A stretch of 46,562 nt of DNA from contig FCNA01000025.1 of the NCBI GenBank assembly GCA_900018345.1, forward strand, positions 1 through 46,562, given 5' to 3'. A program made the position numbers and the translations under genes. Numbering within the stretch: position 1 is the stretch's first letter; each line of letters begins with the position of its first letter. A model generated the notes under the pieces. It was not told the DNA's origin and made no database searches. It saw only the letters and a program-made list of their open reading frames with translations. This document shows, piece by piece, positions 8,963 to 27,148 of the stretch. The DNA is from Clostridiales bacterium CHKCI006. GTDB taxonomy: Bacteria > Bacillota_I > Bacilli_A > Erysipelotrichales > Coprobacillaceae.

Positions 8963-10777
8963 TTACTCCTCTACAATTTGCACAATATCTCCAAAGAGCT
9001 CATAGGCATATTTTTGACCATCCGTCAGCGTTTCTTTTTCCTCTGGTTCCTCGACATTTTCAATATGGGTTAAATGAATCGGTCCCGGTTCTGGAAGCTG
9101 ACCCGCTTTTCTCAGTTCCATATAATGCTTACGGGTAGTCAGCCAGTCTGTCTTGGTCAATGCAATAAAATCAAATGTTTCACCCATCAATTCACTTATA
9201 AAACGTTTCAGACCAAAATAGTTTTCATAATAATTCACATTATTGGCGAGTGCCTGATGCTCAAAGGATAAAATCAATCCTCCCGGACAGGCCGCTACCG
9301 GACTGCTGTCTATCAAGAGACTCGCCCATTTGGCCGTATTGGTATTGGCCAAATAGCGCCTGATCATTGGCCACTTCTCTTGAGCCTGATTTAAGATCGT
9401 CCTTTTCGCATGTACCAAAATATTTAAAATATCTTTTGTGTCAATTTCTATTTGATTCTGCTCTCTATTGGTCTGTAATGGTGATGATGTTTCACGTGAA
9501 ACATTTTCTTCATTCATCACTTCTACCGGTTGTTTTCCTTCTACCGTTGATGGATCTGTCTCTTCTTCTATCTCATCATGACTTTCACTATTTGAGTAAT
9601 CATGATAATCATGAATGATCGGTATCACTTCTTCTTTTGGTTCAGACTTAACCACCGCCTTAGGTGTCTTGCTGGCAGGCTTTACTTTGACTTCATCATG
9701 AACCTGATTACATATTTTCATACAGGCCAGCTCAAAATATATTTTCGCATCCGTTGCTTCACGATAATGCGTACTGGCATCCATCAGAATATCAATATAT
9801 TTAAAGCACTCCTCAACCGTAATATAAGGTAAAAGATCTTTTAGATATCCTTCATTCAACACAGTCAGAATATCCATATTTTCAGTATTTTTATAAATCA
9901 CCACGTCTTTTAAAATTTGGATCAAATCCATGGTCAGACGTTTGATATCTGTCCCCGCTTCATTCATACTATTCAAATCTTTCAATACCTGTCCCATATT
10001 GCGAGTCAGTAAGTTTTGAATAAAACGAATCTGATCAGCGACAGAAATAATACCATATACAGTATTGACATCCGCTACTGTCAGTCGACTGCCTGAATAA
10101 GCCAGACATTGTTCCAGGATGCTCAATGAATCACGCATCCCACCATCCGCAAGCTGCGCAATTAATGCCAGAGCATCTATTTCATAGTCAATTTTTTCTT
10201 CATGCATGACATATTCAAGGTAATCTGTAATATCCTTTTCTGATATCTTTGTAAAATCATAACGTTGACAACGCGAAATGATTGTTGGTAATATTCGCTG
10301 AGGTTCCGTTGTCGCTAAAATAAAAACGACATGTGCTGGAGGCTCTTCTAAGGTCTTTAATAAGGCATTAAAGGCTCCAGGTGACATCATGTGCACCTCA
10401 TCGATGATGTACACTTTATATTTTGCCCGAATCGGCGCATACTTCACCTTTTCAATCAGATCACGAACCTCATCTACCCCGTTATTGCTGGCAGCATCGA
10501 TTTCAACGATATCTGGATGTTCACCATTCGTAATTGCTACACAGTTGTCACAGACATTACATGGCTTCCCATCATGCGCATTTTCACAGTTAATCGCCTT
10601 TGCCAGAATTTTAGCCGTGGATGTCTTTCCAGTACCACGTGGCCCGCAGAACAGATAAGCATGCGAGATTCGATTTTCTTTAATAGCATTTTCCAATGTT
10701 TTTGTAATATGCTTCTGCCCTGCAAAATGCTCAAAATCTTGGGGACGATAAGCACGATATAACGCACGGTATGCCAT
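8963..10777 (-). CDS. dnaX: DNA polymerase III subunits gamma/tau (DnaX)
   Basis: The clamp-loader ATPase. At 604 residues it has the N-terminal AAA+ module with Walker A GPRGTGKT (45-52), a four-Cys zinc site between residues 64 and 82, Walker B YIIDEVHMM, and SRC in TIISRCQRYDF. Domain III and a variable tau-type C-terminal region follow; the latter holds an acidic linker around residues 400-430. No gamma-producing slippery sequence was noted. A parS site is embedded in the linker, where it is read as VSRET. AGGAG precedes the ATG. It heads the leftward dnaX-ybaB-recR-bofA run. Confidence 0.97.
   Translation of the reverse strand: MAYRALYRAYRPQDFEHFAGQKHITKTLENAIKENRISHAYLFCGPRGTGKTSTAKILAKAINCENAHDGKPCNVCDNCVAITNGEHPDIVEIDAASNNGVDEVRDLIEKVKYAPIRAKYKVYIIDEVHMMSPGAFNALLKTLEEPPAHVVFILATTEPQRILPTIISRCQRYDFTKISEKDITDYLEYVMHEEKIDYEIDALALIAQLADGGMRDSLSILEQCLAYSGSRLTVADVNTVYGIISVADQIRFIQNLLTRNMGQVLKDLNSMNEAGTDIKRLTMDLIQILKDVVIYKNTENMDILTVLNEGYLKDLLPYITVEECFKYIDILMDASTHYREATDAKIYFELACMKICNQVHDEVKVKPASKTPKAVVKSEPKEEVIPIIHDYHDYSNSESHDEIEEETDPSTVEGKQPVEVMNEENVSRETSSPLQTNREQNQIEIDTKDILNILVHAKRTILNQAQEKWPMIRRYLANTNTAKWASLLIDSSPVAACPGGLILSFEHQALANNVNYYENYFGLKRFISELMGETFDFIALTKTDWLTTRKHYMELRKAGQLPEPGPIHLTHIENVEEPEEKETLTDGQKYAYELFGDIVQIVEE
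9488..9503. promoter_or_regulatory. parS site 1 (inside dnaX)
   Basis: A perfect 16-bp palindrome TGTTTCACGTGAAACA, the ParB/Spo0J binding consensus. It lies in the variable linker of DnaX, where it is translated as VSRET. Confidence 0.93.
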
Positions 10778-12019: not shown

Positions 12020-12035
12020 TGTTTCACGTGAAACA
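12020..12035. promoter_or_regulatory. parS site 2 (intergenic)
   Basis: Perfect TGTTTCACGTGAAACA between the divergent glycerate-kinase and EIIA genes, 37 bases upstream of the EIIA -35 box. Confidence 0.94.
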
Positions 12036-12621: not shown

Positions 12622-12650
12622 AAGATGGTCACTTTAGCGACCATCTTTTT
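12620..12650. terminator. Bidirectional terminator
   Basis: AAAAGATGGTC (12620-12630) pairs with GACCATCTTTT (12639-12649), with T or A runs on both sides. It separates the EIIA gene from the converging membrane-protein gene. Confidence 0.85.
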
Positions 12651-13534
12651 TAGTCCATTTTCTTTTCGTATACACCCTGACGTTTGACTTGATGATATGC
12701 CTGATAATACATTGAGAAAGATCCAATCAACATGAAGATATAGCCAAATGCCAGATCCTGAGCAACCGCTTCTTGTATTTCTGATTCTTCTAAAAATCTT
12801 GGCAACAAATCAAGCGCTCTTTCAAAGTCGACATCTAGCGCTTTTATGATTTCAAGATCAAGACATAACATTTCTGCCACAGCCAACATAATGACAGAAA
12901 CAATAATGGCTAAAATCAAACCACGAAGATCCAATCTTCCAGCAAACTTTTCATATCCTTTAATGGCCAGAAATGACATCAAAAAGCCACCTAAAACCGT
13001 AATATATCCGGTCTGATAAAAAGCGACCCATGCAGCCATCCCTACGATTGCACCTAAAATTAATCCAATCAATCCCCTTCCAAACTTGACTTTTGGCAAG
13101 CTTGGTACTGAGGCTTGATATTGCTGCAAACAATCATCACAAACAAGCGCTATATTTCCTTGCATATGACAGATATGAACATTTTTCTCCTGCTGACAGT
13201 ACTGACAGATTTCTTTGACTTGCCAGTGTGAAAGGAATGTTGAAACCATTTGCAGCATCTGTTCAATCTGTTGTGGGTTTACTTTATTTATATTCTGAAT
13301 GACCATTTGTAATATCGGTTTCTGGTAGGTCAACTGATCAATATAAGTCAGCGGAAGGTTCATTAACGCTAAATGATATTCTTCTGTCAATGAAACACTC
13401 GTGCTTAACACAAGGCGTTTATTTTGCTTATAATAAGATAAAAGATAATGATAGCCTGCGACTTTTCCATAGGCAGACTGATTAAATTGATCAATTTGAA
13501 AACCAATTGACGTGAGTTCATTGATTCGTTTCAT
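12650..13534 (-). CDS. Zinc-ribbon membrane protein of unknown function
   Basis: A 294-residue protein I do not recognise. Residues 1-105 look cytosolic. A CxxC-x18-CxxC zinc ribbon sits at C110/C113/C132/C135. A Gly-rich membrane segment follows at about 154-175, with further membrane segments near 178-192, 203-225 and 262-282, so probably four in all. A short soluble loop with acidic residues lies before the last one. GAGG precedes the ATG. It starts 10 bases after tadA in the same direction, which suggests cotranscription with tadA. Confidence 0.72.
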   Translation of the reverse strand: MKRINELTSIGFQIDQFNQSAYGKVAGYHYLLSYYKQNKRLVLSTSVSLTEEYHLALMNLPLTYIDQLTYQKPILQMVIQNINKVNPQQIEQMLQMVSTFLSHWQVKEICQYCQQEKNVHICHMQGNIALVCDDCLQQYQASVPSLPKVKFGRGLIGLILGAIVGMAAWVAFYQTGYITVLGGFLMSFLAIKGYEKFAGRLDLRGLILAIIVSVIMLAVAEMLCLDLEIIKALDVDFERALDLLPRFLEESEIQEAVAQDLAFGYIFMLIGSFSMYYQAYHQVKRQGVYEKKMD

Positions 13535-14174: not shown

Positions 14175-14190
14175 TGTTTCACGTGAAACA
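14175..14190. promoter_or_regulatory. parS site 3 (between serS and ffs)
   Basis: Perfect TGTTTCACGTGAAACA, two bases after the serS stop codon and about 20 bases upstream of the ffs -35 box. No T run follows, so it is not an ordinary terminator. Confidence 0.94.
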
Positions 14191-14192
14191 TA

Positions 14193-15479
14193 CTATTTTC
14201 TTTTTTCAATCTTTGTTTTCCCGCCCATGTAAGGTCTTAAGGCTTCAGGAATGTTGATTGTTCCATCAGCATTATAGTTATTTTCGATAAAGGCAATGAT
14301 TGCACGTGTGCTGGCCAGTACCGTATTATTTAAGGTACATACATAATAGTTACCTTCTTTCCCCTTTGCTCGAATACTTAAACGACGCGCCTGGGCATCC
14401 CCTAAGATCGAACATGAACCTACTTCAAAGTATTTTTGCTGTCTTGGTGACCATGCTTCCACATCACAGGATTTCACTTTTAAATCAGCTAAATCTCCTG
14501 AGCAGCATTCTAATGTACGTACGGGAATATTCAAATGACGGAATAGTTCAACCGTATAAGACCACATCTTGTTATACCATTCCATGCCATCTTCCATCTT
14601 ACATAAAACAACCATTTCCTGTTTTTCAAACTGATGCACACGATAGATACCACGTTCTTCAATCCCATGTGCACCGACTTCTTTTCTGAAACATGGAGAG
14701 TAAGAAGTTAAAGTGATTGGGAGTTCATCTTCTTTAATGATCTGATCTTTGAACTTACCAATCATGGAGTGTTCACTCGTTCCAATCAGATATAAATCCT
14801 CCCCTTCAATTTTATACATCATAGCTTCCATCTCATCAAAACTCATGACTCCTGTAACCACATCACTGCGGATCATGAATGGTGGAATACAATAAGTAAA
14901 TCCTTTGTCAATCATGAAGTCACGTGCATAGCTCAACATAGCAGATGATAAGCGAGCAATATCTCCCATTAAATAGTAGAAACCATTCCCACTCGTACGA
15001 CCTGCACTGGCTTTATCTAAGCCATTCAGATTCTCAATGATATCAGCATGGTAAGGAATCTCATATTCGGGCACATAAGGATCTCCGTACTTCTGAATCT
15101 CTACGTTTTCGCTGTCATCTTTGCCAATTGGAACGGAATCATCAATGAAGTTTGGAATTTTCATCATGATCTCTCTGATTTTAGGAGCTAATTCATTTTC
15201 TTTTTCTTCCAGGCTCTTCAATTCATCTGCCATGCTGGTTACCTGGCGTTTATTTTCTTCTGCTTCAGCTTTCTTGCCTTCACGCATAAACTGACCAATT
15301 TCTTTAGATAAACGATTACGCATCGCACGTAAGTCACTTGCTTTCGTTAAGACTTCGCGATACTCTTTGTCTAAAGCAACGACTTCATCTACTAAGTGTA
15401 ACTTATGGTCCTGAAATTTTTTACGCATGTTCTCTTTGACTGCTTCTGGATTTTCTCTTAAGATTGCAATATCAATCAT
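14193..15479 (-). CDS. serS: Seryl-tRNA synthetase, archaeal-like motif set
   Basis: A 428-residue class II synthetase that charges tRNA-Ser. An N-terminal coiled-coil arm (about residues 25-105, KEIGQFMREGKKAEAEENKR) is followed by the catalytic core with the TSEHSMIGK segment, motif 2 in FRKEVGAHG...GIYRVHQFEKQEM, and motif 3 in TLNNTVLASTRAIIAFIEN. These motifs are closer to those of archaeal SerRS (HTLNST..A..RAI) than to the Bacillus form (HTLNGSGLAVGRT). AAAGGAG precedes the ATG. Expression is probably controlled by the T-box upstream. Confidence 0.95.
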   Translation of the reverse strand: MIDIAILRENPEAVKENMRKKFQDHKLHLVDEVVALDKEYREVLTKASDLRAMRNRLSKEIGQFMREGKKAEAEENKRQVTSMADELKSLEEKENELAPKIREIMMKIPNFIDDSVPIGKDDSENVEIQKYGDPYVPEYEIPYHADIIENLNGLDKASAGRTSGNGFYYLMGDIARLSSAMLSYARDFMIDKGFTYCIPPFMIRSDVVTGVMSFDEMEAMMYKIEGEDLYLIGTSEHSMIGKFKDQIIKEDELPITLTSYSPCFRKEVGAHGIEERGIYRVHQFEKQEMVVLCKMEDGMEWYNKMWSYTVELFRHLNIPVRTLECCSGDLADLKVKSCDVEAWSPRQQKYFEVGSCSILGDAQARRLSIRAKGKEGNYYVCTLNNTVLASTRAIIAFIENNYNADGTINIPEALRPYMGGKTKIEKRK

Positions 15480-15497: not shown

Positions 15498-15726
15498 AAA
15501 ATAAAAGGCACCCTTTTAGGGACGAGAATCTCGTGGTGCCACCCTATTTATAAATGTTTCACGTGAAACATCTATCGCTTCATTAGATAACGGCTAAAGC
15601 CGGAAATGGATACTTCATTCCCCATTTCACTCAGAGGGGGATTTCAATAAGTGTTCATACCTGTTTCCACCACCCACAGGCTCTCTATCACAAACGGCTT
15701 ACCTACTTGTCCTCGTCAACGATTTC
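15498..15726 (-). promoter_or_regulatory. T-box leader of serS
   Basis: The minus strand carries the T-box core AGGGTGGCACCACG (15545-15532), which pairs with uncharged tRNA 3' ends and drives antitermination. A terminator stem follows (GGCACC with GGTGCC, then a T-rich run near 15500). Upstream is a Stem I with an AGAGAGCCTG...CAGG apical region. Specifier choice lies in CCCCCTCTGAG, so UCC or UCU, both serine. A parS palindrome occupies the place just before the core where Stem III should be. A serine-tRNA-sensing role is inferred from the gene it controls. Confidence 0.9.
15555..15570. promoter_or_regulatory. parS site 4 (inside the serS T-box leader)
   Basis: Perfect TGTTTCACGTGAAACA nine bases 5' of the T-box core on the transcribed strand. 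In RNA it can fold into a hairpin in the Stem III position. Confidence 0.94.
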
Positions 15727-15732
15727 AATGTC

Positions 15733-15761
15733 ATTATACAATAAAGTCTTGAAGGAATCAA
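15733..15761 (-). promoter_or_regulatory. Promoter of the serS T-box transcript
   Basis: On the minus strand TTGATT (15756-15761), a 17-base spacer and a perfect TATAAT (15733-15738). The start would be near 15726. The -35 box overlaps the last codons of the phosphorylase-like gene. Confidence 0.75.
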
Positions 15762-16453
15762 TCTTTTTCATGCGTTAAAATGGCTAGCGCATGGGACATC
15801 CAGCTTTCATCATATTGCTGCGTTAAAAAACGACAAGCCTGAACCTGACGAAATTGAGCAACAGCATAATACGCACTGGTCTCCTGATCGACAGCCTTAC
15901 ATCCCTCCTTCTTGTAGGCTTCGATTTTACGTGAGGTCAACCGATAGATGGCATCCGTTGTCCAGACGCGCCCGGTTTCATAAGCCAAAGCATTCTGCAA
16001 AATGTATTGCTGGCAGCGTCTGAACAGATCATTATCTGCATCAACATAACGTGTTGGAGCCATATAATGAAATGAAGTTCCTTCATCTCGTAAAGCACTG
16101 GAAACAAGTAATCCTGATGACAAATCAAGATTGAAGCAATGGCCATAAATCAAAACTTCCTTTACTCCCAACGCAGCTAAACGATCGATCGTTCCTGCGG
16201 CAATTGAAGCACATGCGTAAGGAAAAACATAGATCAATTGATGGAGCGCATCGTAATAAAAAGGGATTGTCGCAGTTTCTGTTGGAAAATCAAAGAGAAG
16301 ACGGAGATTAGAATAGGATAGGATCCTGTCTAAATCTTCTTGCCAGTAACTAACGATGGCTTTGGAAGCTTGTATCTCCACATCTATTTCATCACTTGCA
16401 TTAATAAAAGCAGTCTGACTAGAATCAAATTCGAATAAAGCTGTTTGATCCAT
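15758..16453 (-). CDS. Diverged nucleoside-phosphorylase-like protein
   Basis: A 231-residue paralogue of the gene just upstream: both share ALRDEGTSFHY, an APTR/APSR segment, a Trp-Thr-x-Asp-Ala motif and AVAQF. In this copy the glycine motif CGGAGVLN of the upstream protein is replaced by YGHCFNLD, and the VEMEAA phosphate/ribose-binding motif is replaced by VDQETSA. Reduced or changed catalysis is therefore likely. GGAGG precedes the ATG; the gene starts directly after the stop of the upstream one. It could be a regulatory partner or an enzyme with altered substrate; nothing in the sequence decides. Confidence 0.8.
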   Translation of the reverse strand: MDQTALFEFDSSQTAFINASDEIDVEIQASKAIVSYWQEDLDRILSYSNLRLLFDFPTETATIPFYYDALHQLIYVFPYACASIAAGTIDRLAALGVKEVLIYGHCFNLDLSSGLLVSSALRDEGTSFHYMAPTRYVDADNDLFRRCQQYILQNALAYETGRVWTTDAIYRLTSRKIEAYKKEGCKAVDQETSAYYAVAQFRQVQACRFLTQQYDESWMSHALAILTHEKD

Positions 16454-17230
16454 CTACTGTTCCTCCTTCCTTGTTTCACGTGAAACATCAACACAACTCA
16501 ATAAAAACTGTAGTAGTTCATAGCGAATCTCCTTTTGGGTATTCCACTGACGATTATCCCATTCCTCTCCACTCAAGGAATCACCACCATAGAAAATACC
16601 CGCAATCCGCATATCATAAAACTGAGCCACCGCAAATAAACCAGCTGCCTCCATTTCAACACATAAGCATCCTTCCTGACGTCTGTTAGCAACCTTTGCC
16701 TTTGTTTCACGATAAGCAGCGTCTATGGTCCAGGTCATCCCTTTGACATAAGGCAGTTTTTGCTGCTGTAACGCTTTCTCAATGGTCGCTAACGCCATTG
16801 GATCAGCCTGGATAATTCTTGAAGGGGCTGCATAATGAAAAGAAGTGCCTTCATCACGCAAAGCGCGGTCAGGTAATATCAAATGACCAACCGCTAAGTC
16901 ATTCAGCACACCTGCACCTCCACAATAATAGACTGTGCAGATTCCTAACGCACGCATCCATTCCACTTGGCTAGATACATTCGCGCCACTCACGCCTCCT
17001 AACATTAAGACGCGACGCTTGGCATGATCCACATATAGTGGCAACGGCAATGTCTGCCATCTTTCCGCTCTCATGATCTCCAGTTCAGGATGTTCTGCTA
17101 CATAACGCTCGATCGCATCACGAAAAAAACAAATGAACCCAATATATCCATGTAGACAATCCTGATTCTTGATATCAAATAACGACAATCCGGTATCAGG
17201 ATCAAAATCAAGTAAAGCGATAGGTTCCAC
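16454..17230 (-). CDS. Nucleoside phosphorylase family protein (uridine phosphorylase-like)
   Basis: A 258-residue phosphorylase superfamily protein that probably splits a nucleoside with phosphate or water. It carries a Gly-rich motif CGGAGVLNDL, the RDEGTSFHYAAPSR segment, and CLCVEMEAAGLFAVAQF, where VEMEAA is the conserved purine/ribose-contacting motif. DSLSGEEWD near the C terminus holds the Asp that contacts the base. The start is a GTG at 17230, with AGGAG about 12 bases upstream, which is loose; a later start is possible. A parS site is read as VSRET near the C terminus. Confidence 0.87.
   Translation of the reverse strand: MEPIALLDFDPDTGLSLFDIKNQDCLHGYIGFICFFRDAIERYVAEHPELEIMRAERWQTLPLPLYVDHAKRRVLMLGGVSGANVSSQVEWMRALGICTVYYCGGAGVLNDLAVGHLILPDRALRDEGTSFHYAAPSRIIQADPMALATIEKALQQQKLPYVKGMTWTIDAAYRETKAKVANRRQEGCLCVEMEAAGLFAVAQFYDMRIAGIFYGGDSLSGEEWDNRQWNTQKEIRYELLQFLLSCVDVSRETRKEEQ
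16472..16487. promoter_or_regulatory. parS site 5 (3' end of the phosphorylase gene)
   Basis: Perfect TGTTTCACGTGAAACA within the last codons of the phosphorylase gene, translated as VSRET, immediately before the ribosome binding site of the next gene. Confidence 0.94.
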
Positions 17231-25128: not shown

Positions 25129-25295
25129 GTTTTAGGACTCCTTTTCTTATTTTTTATATATCTTTCTTTTTAATTATCATTATTATTAGGGATTGTGGAT
25201 ATGTGGAAAACGTGAAAAAGAATGACAAACAGATGAAAAATCTCAAAAATAGCCTGTGGAAAACAGGTGGAAAGATGTGGATAACCTGTGGAAAA
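25129..25295. other. oriC part 1: DnaA boxes between dnaA and dnaN
   Basis: Five DnaA-box-like 9-mers in the same orientation: TGTGGATAT (25194-25202), TGTGGAAAA (25202-25210, 25255-25263, 25287-25295) and the perfect TGTGGATAA (25276-25284). An AT-rich tract (25141-25188) borders them on the dnaN side. This matches the arrangement of the unwinding half of a Bacillus-type origin. The boxes vary from one another; only one is perfect. Confidence 0.88.
25174..25188 (-). other. DnaA-trio element of oriC
   Basis: On the minus strand, after the box ATATCCACA and the short GC element ATCCC, the sequence reads TAA-TAA-TAA-TGA-TAA and then becomes AT-rich. This is the order DnaA box, GC stretch, trios and AT-rich region described for Bacillus origins, where DnaA loads on single-stranded trios. 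Confidence 0.7.
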
Positions 25296-26636
25296 CTACT
25301 TCAGCATATCCTTGATCTCCACAATGGCTTCCCGATACTTCGGGTCTTTCTTAAGCATTCTGCTGACCTTATCGCAAGCGGTCATGACGGTCGAATGATC
25401 TCTGCCGCCAAATTCCTCCCCTATTTTAATATAGGACATATTTAAGAGGTCGCGGATCAGATACATAGAGATATGACGTGCCATCGCGATATTGGACATG
25501 CGGCTTTTACTGACAAGCTGGGCCAAAGACAGGTTGTAATATTCTGCAACGGTCTTTTTGATCTTATCAGCTGTCAGTTTTCCGGTTGTTGTAATGGTCA
25601 CTTTACTATCATCTTTGAATGCTTCGAGGGCCAGGTTCATCGTGATGCGGGAGGCATTTTCAAAGATGGAAAAATAAATCAGACGGTTGAGCTGACCTTC
25701 CAGGACACGGACATCACTGGAATACTTATTGGCCATAAATACCAGTACCTCTTCATCAAAATTCTCAATATCGACATTTTGAATCTCCATTTTCTTTTTA
25801 AGGATGGCCAGTGCAGTTTCAAATTCAGGCGGATCGACGCTGACGCTAAGCCCTGATGAAAAGCGACTGACAAGACGGTTCTCTAGTCCGGCAAGGTCCT
25901 GAGGCATCCGGTCAGCCGTTAAAACGATCTGTTTTTTATTGGAAATCATGTGGTTAAAGATATGGAAGAAGACCTCATGGGACTTTTCTTTACCACTTAA
26001 GAACTGAATATCATCTACAAGCAGGATATCCAAACTGCGATATTTTTCGTTGAAATCATCAATTTTTCCGTTTTTAATAGAGTTGACGTATTCATTGACG
26101 AAATCCATACACTGGATGTACATGACGGCGAGATCTTTATGATGTTCCTTAATATAATGACCGATAGCATTGATCAGATGCGTCTTGCCTAGTCCGGAAT
26201 TCCCGTAAATAAAAAGCGGGTTAAAAGACTGTCCCGGGTTGATGGCCGTCGCGAGACTGGCTGCCTGGGCAATTTTGTTTGAGTCACCGACCACAAACTG
26301 ATCGAAGACAAAATTATCGATGAGGTTGTCTTTGATTTCAATGAGGGGTTTTTGGGCCTGTTTTTTTTCTTCTTCGCGCTTCGCCAGGGCATCCTGTGTC
26401 AGAATCTCGACTTCATATTGCTGCGTAGTGACCTGTTTCAGGGCTTCAATGATGAGATCCAGGCGGTTGCGAAGCACAACGTCTCCAAATTGGGTTTCTA
26501 CAACGATGCGCGCTTTTCCCTGGCCGATATAAGCGAGCTTGGAATTGGCGTAGAACGTCTCAAAGGCGACATTGTCATTAATTTGTGATTGGATATAAGC
26601 CAGACATTGGCTCCAGATTTTATCATATTCGTTCAT
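25296..26636 (-). CDS. dnaA: Replication initiator DnaA
   Basis: DnaA, 446 residues. Domain I (residues 1-80) is followed by a linker, then the AAA+ domain with Walker A GNSGLGKT, Walker B LLVDDIQFLSGKE, sensor ILTADRMP and the arginine motif GLENRLVSRF. C-terminal domain IV carries the box-binding signature FGGRDHSTVMTACDKV. GGGGTG precedes the ATG. DnaA boxes flank the gene on both sides, consistent with autoregulation. Confidence 0.98.
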   Translation of the reverse strand: MNEYDKIWSQCLAYIQSQINDNVAFETFYANSKLAYIGQGKARIVVETQFGDVVLRNRLDLIIEALKQVTTQQYEVEILTQDALAKREEEKKQAQKPLIEIKDNLIDNFVFDQFVVGDSNKIAQAASLATAINPGQSFNPLFIYGNSGLGKTHLINAIGHYIKEHHKDLAVMYIQCMDFVNEYVNSIKNGKIDDFNEKYRSLDILLVDDIQFLSGKEKSHEVFFHIFNHMISNKKQIVLTADRMPQDLAGLENRLVSRFSSGLSVSVDPPEFETALAILKKKMEIQNVDIENFDEEVLVFMANKYSSDVRVLEGQLNRLIYFSIFENASRITMNLALEAFKDDSKVTITTTGKLTADKIKKTVAEYYNLSLAQLVSKSRMSNIAMARHISMYLIRDLLNMSYIKIGEEFGGRDHSTVMTACDKVSRMLKKDPKYREAIVEIKDMLK

Positions 26637-27064
26637 AGAGACACCCCTTCAACCTATATTATAATAAAAAACGGTGGAAAAAACTATACCCAAGCGAAAA
26701 TTTATCCACCATGCGCAAAGTGCAGAAGCCTAAAATTGTGGATAAGTAGTGAGAATTTAACGTCATAGTGGAAAATTTAACGGAAATAGTATGCTTTTTA
26801 ACGCAATTTTTAAGACTTTTCCACAAAAGTTATCCACATCCTTTCAACATGGTGGAAAATAAAGAAGTAATCCACTGTGGAGAAATGTGGATAACTAGGC
26901 TTTTCAACCCTCTTTCCGCAGTCTTTTTCCACATCAAAAGAAATGATAAATTCAGTAAAAATCAGGTTTTCCCACAGTTGTGGAAAACTTTTATCAGCAT
27001 CTGTGTAAAACCATGTGGATAAATGAAAAATGACGTTATTCTCAATGTTTTTTCATTTTATTTA
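26637..27064. other. oriC part 2: DnaA-box cluster between dnaA and rpmH
   Basis: Four perfect DnaA boxes: TGTGGATAA at 26737-26745, 26886-26894 and 27014-27022, and TTATCCACA at 26830-26838. There are near matches at 26702-26710 (TTATCCACC), 26817-26825 (TTTTCCACA) and 26877-26885 (TGTGGAGAA). Boxes lie in both orientations. No gene is contained here. This is the upstream half of the bipartite origin and also the dnaA regulatory region. Confidence 0.9.
26658..26663 (-). promoter_or_regulatory. -10 element of dnaA
   Basis: A perfect TATAAT on the minus strand, about 22 bases before the dnaA start codon. No good -35 box is seen. A degenerate TGGATAAA-type DnaA box lies 40 bases upstream, where DnaA could repress. 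Confidence 0.5.
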
Positions 27065-27093
27065 TTGACTTTACAGGGCAATTAAGCTAAAAT
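27065..27093 (+). promoter_or_regulatory. Promoter of rpmH-rnpA-yidC-jag
   Basis: TTGACT (27065-27070), a 17-base spacer and TAAAAT (27088-27093). It is the first rightward promoter after the DnaA-box cluster. Confidence 0.8.
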
Positions 27094-27148
27094 AGTAAAG
27101 CATATGTTTTACTGTGTATAAAAAATCAAAAATGGAGGTAAAAGAAAT

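Follow-up and report, generated by a model that had tools for sequence, protein, structure and literature searches.

The serS locus examined here raises the question whether a single sequence can be used both as a centromere site in DNA and as a structural stem in the RNA of a tRNA-sensing leader. A sequence-only reading of the 46,562-nucleotide stretch of DNA that was analysed (the window; Clostridiales bacterium CHKCI006, contig FCNA01000025.1) had placed a perfect parS at 15555-15570, nine bases before the T-box core AGGGTGG, in the position of Stem III. Site and spacing are exact in the sequence, and a cmscan search of the window aligned the palindrome to the Stem III columns of the T-box model.

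The serS leader and the origin-proximal parS cluster

The features of the window on which the analysis draws are as follows.

15515-15728, minus strand: tRNA-sensing T-box riboswitch in the leader of serS (RF00230 in Rfam; 137.8 bits, model positions 1-219 of 219)
15555-15570, no strand assigned: perfect parS TGTTTCACGTGAAACA, the upper part of Stem III (exact match and cmscan Stem III columns)
15550-15575, minus strand: Stem III, AUAGAUGUUUC-ACGU-GAAACAUUUAU, 11 bp (predicted fold; covariation in 94 distinct relatives)
15576-15580, minus strand: AAGCG, purine motif RRRxG on the 5' side of Stem III (sequence; motif definition PMC7583486)
15548-15549, minus strand: AA, conserved on the 3' side of Stem III (sequence; motif definition PMC7583486)
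15518-15545, minus strand: T-box core and antiterminator, AGGGUGGCACCACGAG...CUCGUCCCU (cmscan alignment)
15499-15540, minus strand: putative intrinsic terminator competing with the antiterminator (by inspection of the sequence), with a GGCACC arm at 15535-15540, a GGGUGCC arm at 15507-15513 and a U-rich run at 15499-15506
14193-15479, minus strand: serS, seryl-tRNA synthetase, 428 aa (TIGR00414, 402.6 bits against a cut-off of 301.65)
14175-14190, no strand assigned: second parS, 2 bases past the serS stop codon (exact match; recurrence in relatives)
16472-16487, no strand assigned: parS in the 3'-terminal part of reading frame 16454-17230, upstream of serS (exact match)
12020-12035, no strand assigned: parS just upstream of the glycerate kinase gene (exact match)
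9488-9503, no strand assigned: parS inside dnaX, read as VSRET (exact match)
25202-27121, no strand assigned: oriC region, with dnaA (25296-26636) flanked on both sides by DnaA boxes

The leader is a full-length T-box well above the gathering threshold of 93 bits (E 1e-30), with serS immediately downstream. Its core AGGGUGGCACC was found together with CUCGUCCCU in the cmscan alignment, and the competing terminator was read from the sequence. A UCC serine codon lies near the specifier position, and the leader probably responds to tRNA-Ser. Stem III in the window consists of parS and five flanking bases per side. That an RNA copy of the palindrome would fold into a stem, as had been proposed, is borne out by prediction: the 11-bp hairpin is present in the minimum free energy (MFE) and centroid structures of both the local segment (z -2.7) and the full leader, though the full leader as a whole does not fold clearly better than its shuffles (z -0.86). 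In T-boxes, Stem III is framed by the RRRxG and AA motifs, and the Stem III region has been reviewed as indispensable to the T-box discriminator, with a variable stem and loop (PMC7583486). This frame is present in the window and was seen by inspection in most folded leaders; an automatic check at the ends of the MFE helix confirmed the 5' motif in 54 of 109 leaders.

On the DNA side, 15555-15570 has no mismatch to the chromosomal parS consensus TGTTNCACGTGAAACA, taken from a review (PMC7022226). The window holds five perfect parS sites and one with three mismatches. By chance, 0.32 matches with up to three mismatches are expected, and six were reached in no shuffle. The five perfect copies are the only ones in the genome; they span less than 7 kb and lie 10-17 kb from dnaA/oriC. 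The genome also encodes ParB (TIGR00180 matches of 204 and 194 bits); of 16 genomes tested, ParB was found in 15. Given the exact site and the ParB gene, binding of ParB (Spo0J) at 15555-15570 is predicted.

Some further observations concern the surroundings. Both in-frame parS sites, in dnaX and in frame 16454-17230, translate as VSRET. Two adjacent reading frames lie upstream of serS at 15758-17230, the first matching the phosphorylase superfamily (PF01048) and the second apparently similar, with no NCBIfam match. A 294-aa reading frame beside tadA (12650-13534) gave no Pfam match at 0.001.

The reading that we hold to be very probably correct is one of dual use, in which ParB nucleates on the parS in DNA and the T-box uses the same bases as Stem III in RNA. 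In DNA, 15555-15570 would be one of five origin-proximal sites where the chromosomal ParB nucleates. In RNA, these bases would form the apical part of Stem III, a helix belonging to the T-box discriminator, in which pairing is needed and sequence is largely free. Because the palindrome is perfect, every RNA copy of it is a hairpin, and parS would therefore fit into Stem III without harming the switch, while the flanking bases would adjust so as to keep the helix framed by RRRxG and AA. The two uses would need no regulatory coupling.

Constraints along the Stem III helix

Alternatively, Stem III could merely happen to read as parS and be conserved for its RNA, with ParB making no use of the site, considering that the T-box needs nothing beyond a hairpin at this place. 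The bases themselves speak to this. A set of leaders was picked via serS and not via parS, starting from 90 SerRS sequences of two families; 27 of the leaders carry parS in Stem III, 38 are T-boxes without parS, and the remaining 25 have no T-box by the search pattern. The best parS match before the core has 0-2 mismatches in the 27 leaders and 5-9 in the 38, the latter being the range of shuffled segments, and no leader among these 65 has 3-4 mismatches. Stem III is thus either parS or unrelated, with no intermediates, which argues against conservation for RNA alone. Every leader with two mismatches has the compensated TGTTCCACGTGGAACA; the two-mismatch variant GTTCCACGTGGAAC is a double change that preserves pairing. 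In several species, ParB accepts GTTCCAC in addition to GTTTCAC (PMC7022226). The ACGT of the loop is kept, as is the exact core, while the remainder of the stem varies, which the RNA explanation leaves unaccounted for, as it does the absence of parS from the other Stem IIIs in these genomes; on that explanation, some closed genomes would also be left with no other perfect-core site. It is therefore judged very unlikely. The core of 14-16 bp is held as parS, and this constraint is separable from the pairing constraint on its flanks.

The converse explanation is that parS was placed in a spacer and that its RNA copy has no role in the T-box. T-boxes without parS do exist, and a few nearly lack Stem III: the leaders L203, L216 and L187 (genomes G045, G060 and G097), upstream of serS, have just a short purine-rich link before the core. 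The flanking arms bear on this explanation. Outside the core they differ among leaders and match within each leader. The mean helix extension is 4.8 bp. It falls to 2.30 +/- 0.14 if arms are exchanged among leaders, and the highest value reached in 2000 shuffles was 2.84; the other parS sites at the same loci are less extended (3.4 vs 4.8). In 94 distinct sequences, 92.9% of the cells were paired and 113 were double-changed, compared with 46 +/- 5 in shuffles, of which 0 of 500 reached 113. G-U pairs occurred at 0.82 of expectation, whereas A-C and the other mismatches were depleted, to 0.24 and 0.41 respectively, although, since the leaders are related, cell counts are not independent and the swapped-arm and G-U tests are indications and not exact probabilities. 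Retention of G-U together with depletion of A-C exceeds what DNA palindromy demands and points to selection on the sense RNA of the flanking stem. Along with the RRRxG and AA framing and the weaker extension of neighbouring sites, these covarying arms leave a purely DNA-based placement very unlikely. Extrusion of the extended palindrome as a DNA cruciform was also considered and is disfavoured, as the tolerance of wobble pairs is confined to a single strand.

Recurrence and replacement of parS among relatives

A search pattern of parS followed by GGGTGG within 32 bases was applied to genomes of the order, with the reversed pattern as control. The pattern was found in 104 of 295 sampled genomes, in 20 of 79 genera, and the control gave zero matches in the 295. 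One match (L226 in G031) has no T-box and was dropped as a chance match. The arrangement is wider than the sequence-only reading had supposed, occurring in 103 of the 295 genomes and, in the class and phylum samples, in another six families (f7, f10, f13, f18, f28 and f29). The SerRS of f7, f10, f13 and f18, where compared, is only 33-36% identical to that of the window. By tblastn, serS lies directly downstream in 109 of 112 parS-bearing loci; in the other three, a contig end cuts the locus or the other SerRS type is present. The parS-bearing leaders are T-boxes above the Rfam gathering score in 18 of 20 scanned loci, and no T-box was listed at that score for L009 and L021; the serS leader of G049, close to L009, scores 94.4 bits. 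In four surveyed genomes with 23, 11, 12 and 19 T-boxes, parS was found in none of the non-serS T-boxes. A coincidence confined to a single genome could have been imagined, as parS clusters near oriC, where serS also lies. With these 103 members of the order, the further families and the empty control, it is refuted by the relatives and retains practically no probability. Together with the covariation and the conserved core, the recurrence backs the earlier proposal that the same bases act as a palindrome in DNA and as a stem in RNA.

Two leaders of family f10 (L254 in G323, L255 in G313) contain GTTTCATGTTTCACGTG(A/G)AAC, a duplicated half parS that permits two alternative hairpins. In the sister family, the other SerRS type follows a parS-bearing T-box leader (L315 in G193), suggesting that the gene was replaced while the leader was retained.

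The state of Stem III, with or without parS, was followed on the SerRS tree, where it requires at least nine changes, four of them forced by well-supported branches. The nearest relative of the window in the tree, G001, also has parS in Stem III; the clade around the two has hairpins such as GATATC...GATATG instead. In relatives without parS, an unrelated hairpin fills the place of Stem III, as seen in about half of the T-box leaders of the sister family and in most of those in the window's family. From the 27 and 38 leaders and the tree, it follows that parS and ordinary hairpins substitute for each other in Stem III, and the relatives with an ordinary stem show that parS is replaceable and dispensable for the T-box. 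Finding the same T-box fold in relatives whose parS lies outside the leader had been named beforehand as grounds for giving up the dual role. Such relatives do occur, having parS elsewhere and an ordinary T-box on serS, but it does not follow that Stem III is something else.

The riboswitch holds a variable share of the sites. The closed genomes G049, G084 and G071 have two perfect-core sites each, one in the T-box and the other just after serS or elsewhere downstream of it. GTTYCACGTGRAAC has a single match, the T-box site, in G316, G334 and the draft G688; in the first two, a one-mismatch near-match lies some 450 bases from it. The window and many relatives, including those that lack parS in the T-box, have a parS immediately past the serS stop codon, so that serS is often bracketed by parS. 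The stop-adjacent site was considered as an intrinsic terminator and rejected, as no U-run directly follows it in the window. In another relative (L192 in G054), a hairpin resembling a terminator lies upstream of the T-box, 265 bases before serS, and contains a parS with 11 further paired bases per side, so parS may also reside in terminators.

The distribution of sites also bears on whether placement was selected for coupling, beyond mere tolerance: ParB clamps at parS, or RNA polymerase pausing at Stem III, could link serS expression to ParB loading. The association is specific to serS and spans several families and both SerRS types. Moreover, the T-box site is the sole perfect-core parS in some genomes, Stem III is a reported pause site (PMC6197855), and ParB can silence parS-adjacent genes in some systems (PMC7333895, PMC7022226). 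On the other hand, loss of Spo0J in B. subtilis left the expression of parS-adjacent genes unchanged (PMC7022226), many relatives have a T-box-controlled serS with an ordinary Stem III and parS elsewhere, and the nearness of serS to oriC by itself favours parS there. Selection for coupling is accordingly considered unlikely, as is the earlier suggestion that ParB spreading at this site could affect serS transcription. The same doubt applies to the serS T-box as a dedicated centromere-riboswitch module, in which the loading of ParB on the parS of Stem III and the pausing or termination of RNA polymerase within the leader would act on each other and thereby link serine and tRNA charging status to origin segregation.

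Relation to known systems

No prior report of parS in a T-box, riboswitch or serS leader was found in the open-licence literature, and a centromere site within a riboswitch helix is, as far as searched, undescribed. Under dual use, the locus would be a clear natural example of selection acting on a single sequence both for its recognition by a protein in DNA and for base pairing in RNA, with the two constraints separable along one helix. This would account for the persistence of parS in an essential, densely packed origin region. Because the riboswitch stem is the only perfect-core parS in some genomes, it also offers a system for testing a possible interplay of ParB clamp, RNA polymerase pausing and T-box decision.

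The leader resembles known T-boxes of RF00230, such as that of B. subtilis glyQS, in its full architecture, with RRRxG-Stem III-AA, antiterminator and terminator, and in the aminoacyl-tRNA synthetase gene downstream. It differs in that Stem III normally has no fixed sequence, whereas here the tip is an exact, conserved parS and a predicted ParB site. As in chromosomal ParABS/Spo0J systems, the sites match the consensus exactly, cluster near the origin and occur in a genome with ParB; unlike other chromosomal parS, one of them lies in a structured regulatory RNA, within a covarying helix. The parS sites inside coding genes (dnaX and frame 16454-17230) likewise overlap another genetic function. 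In the leader, however, the overlap is with RNA structure and not with codons, a demand that palindromy meets automatically.
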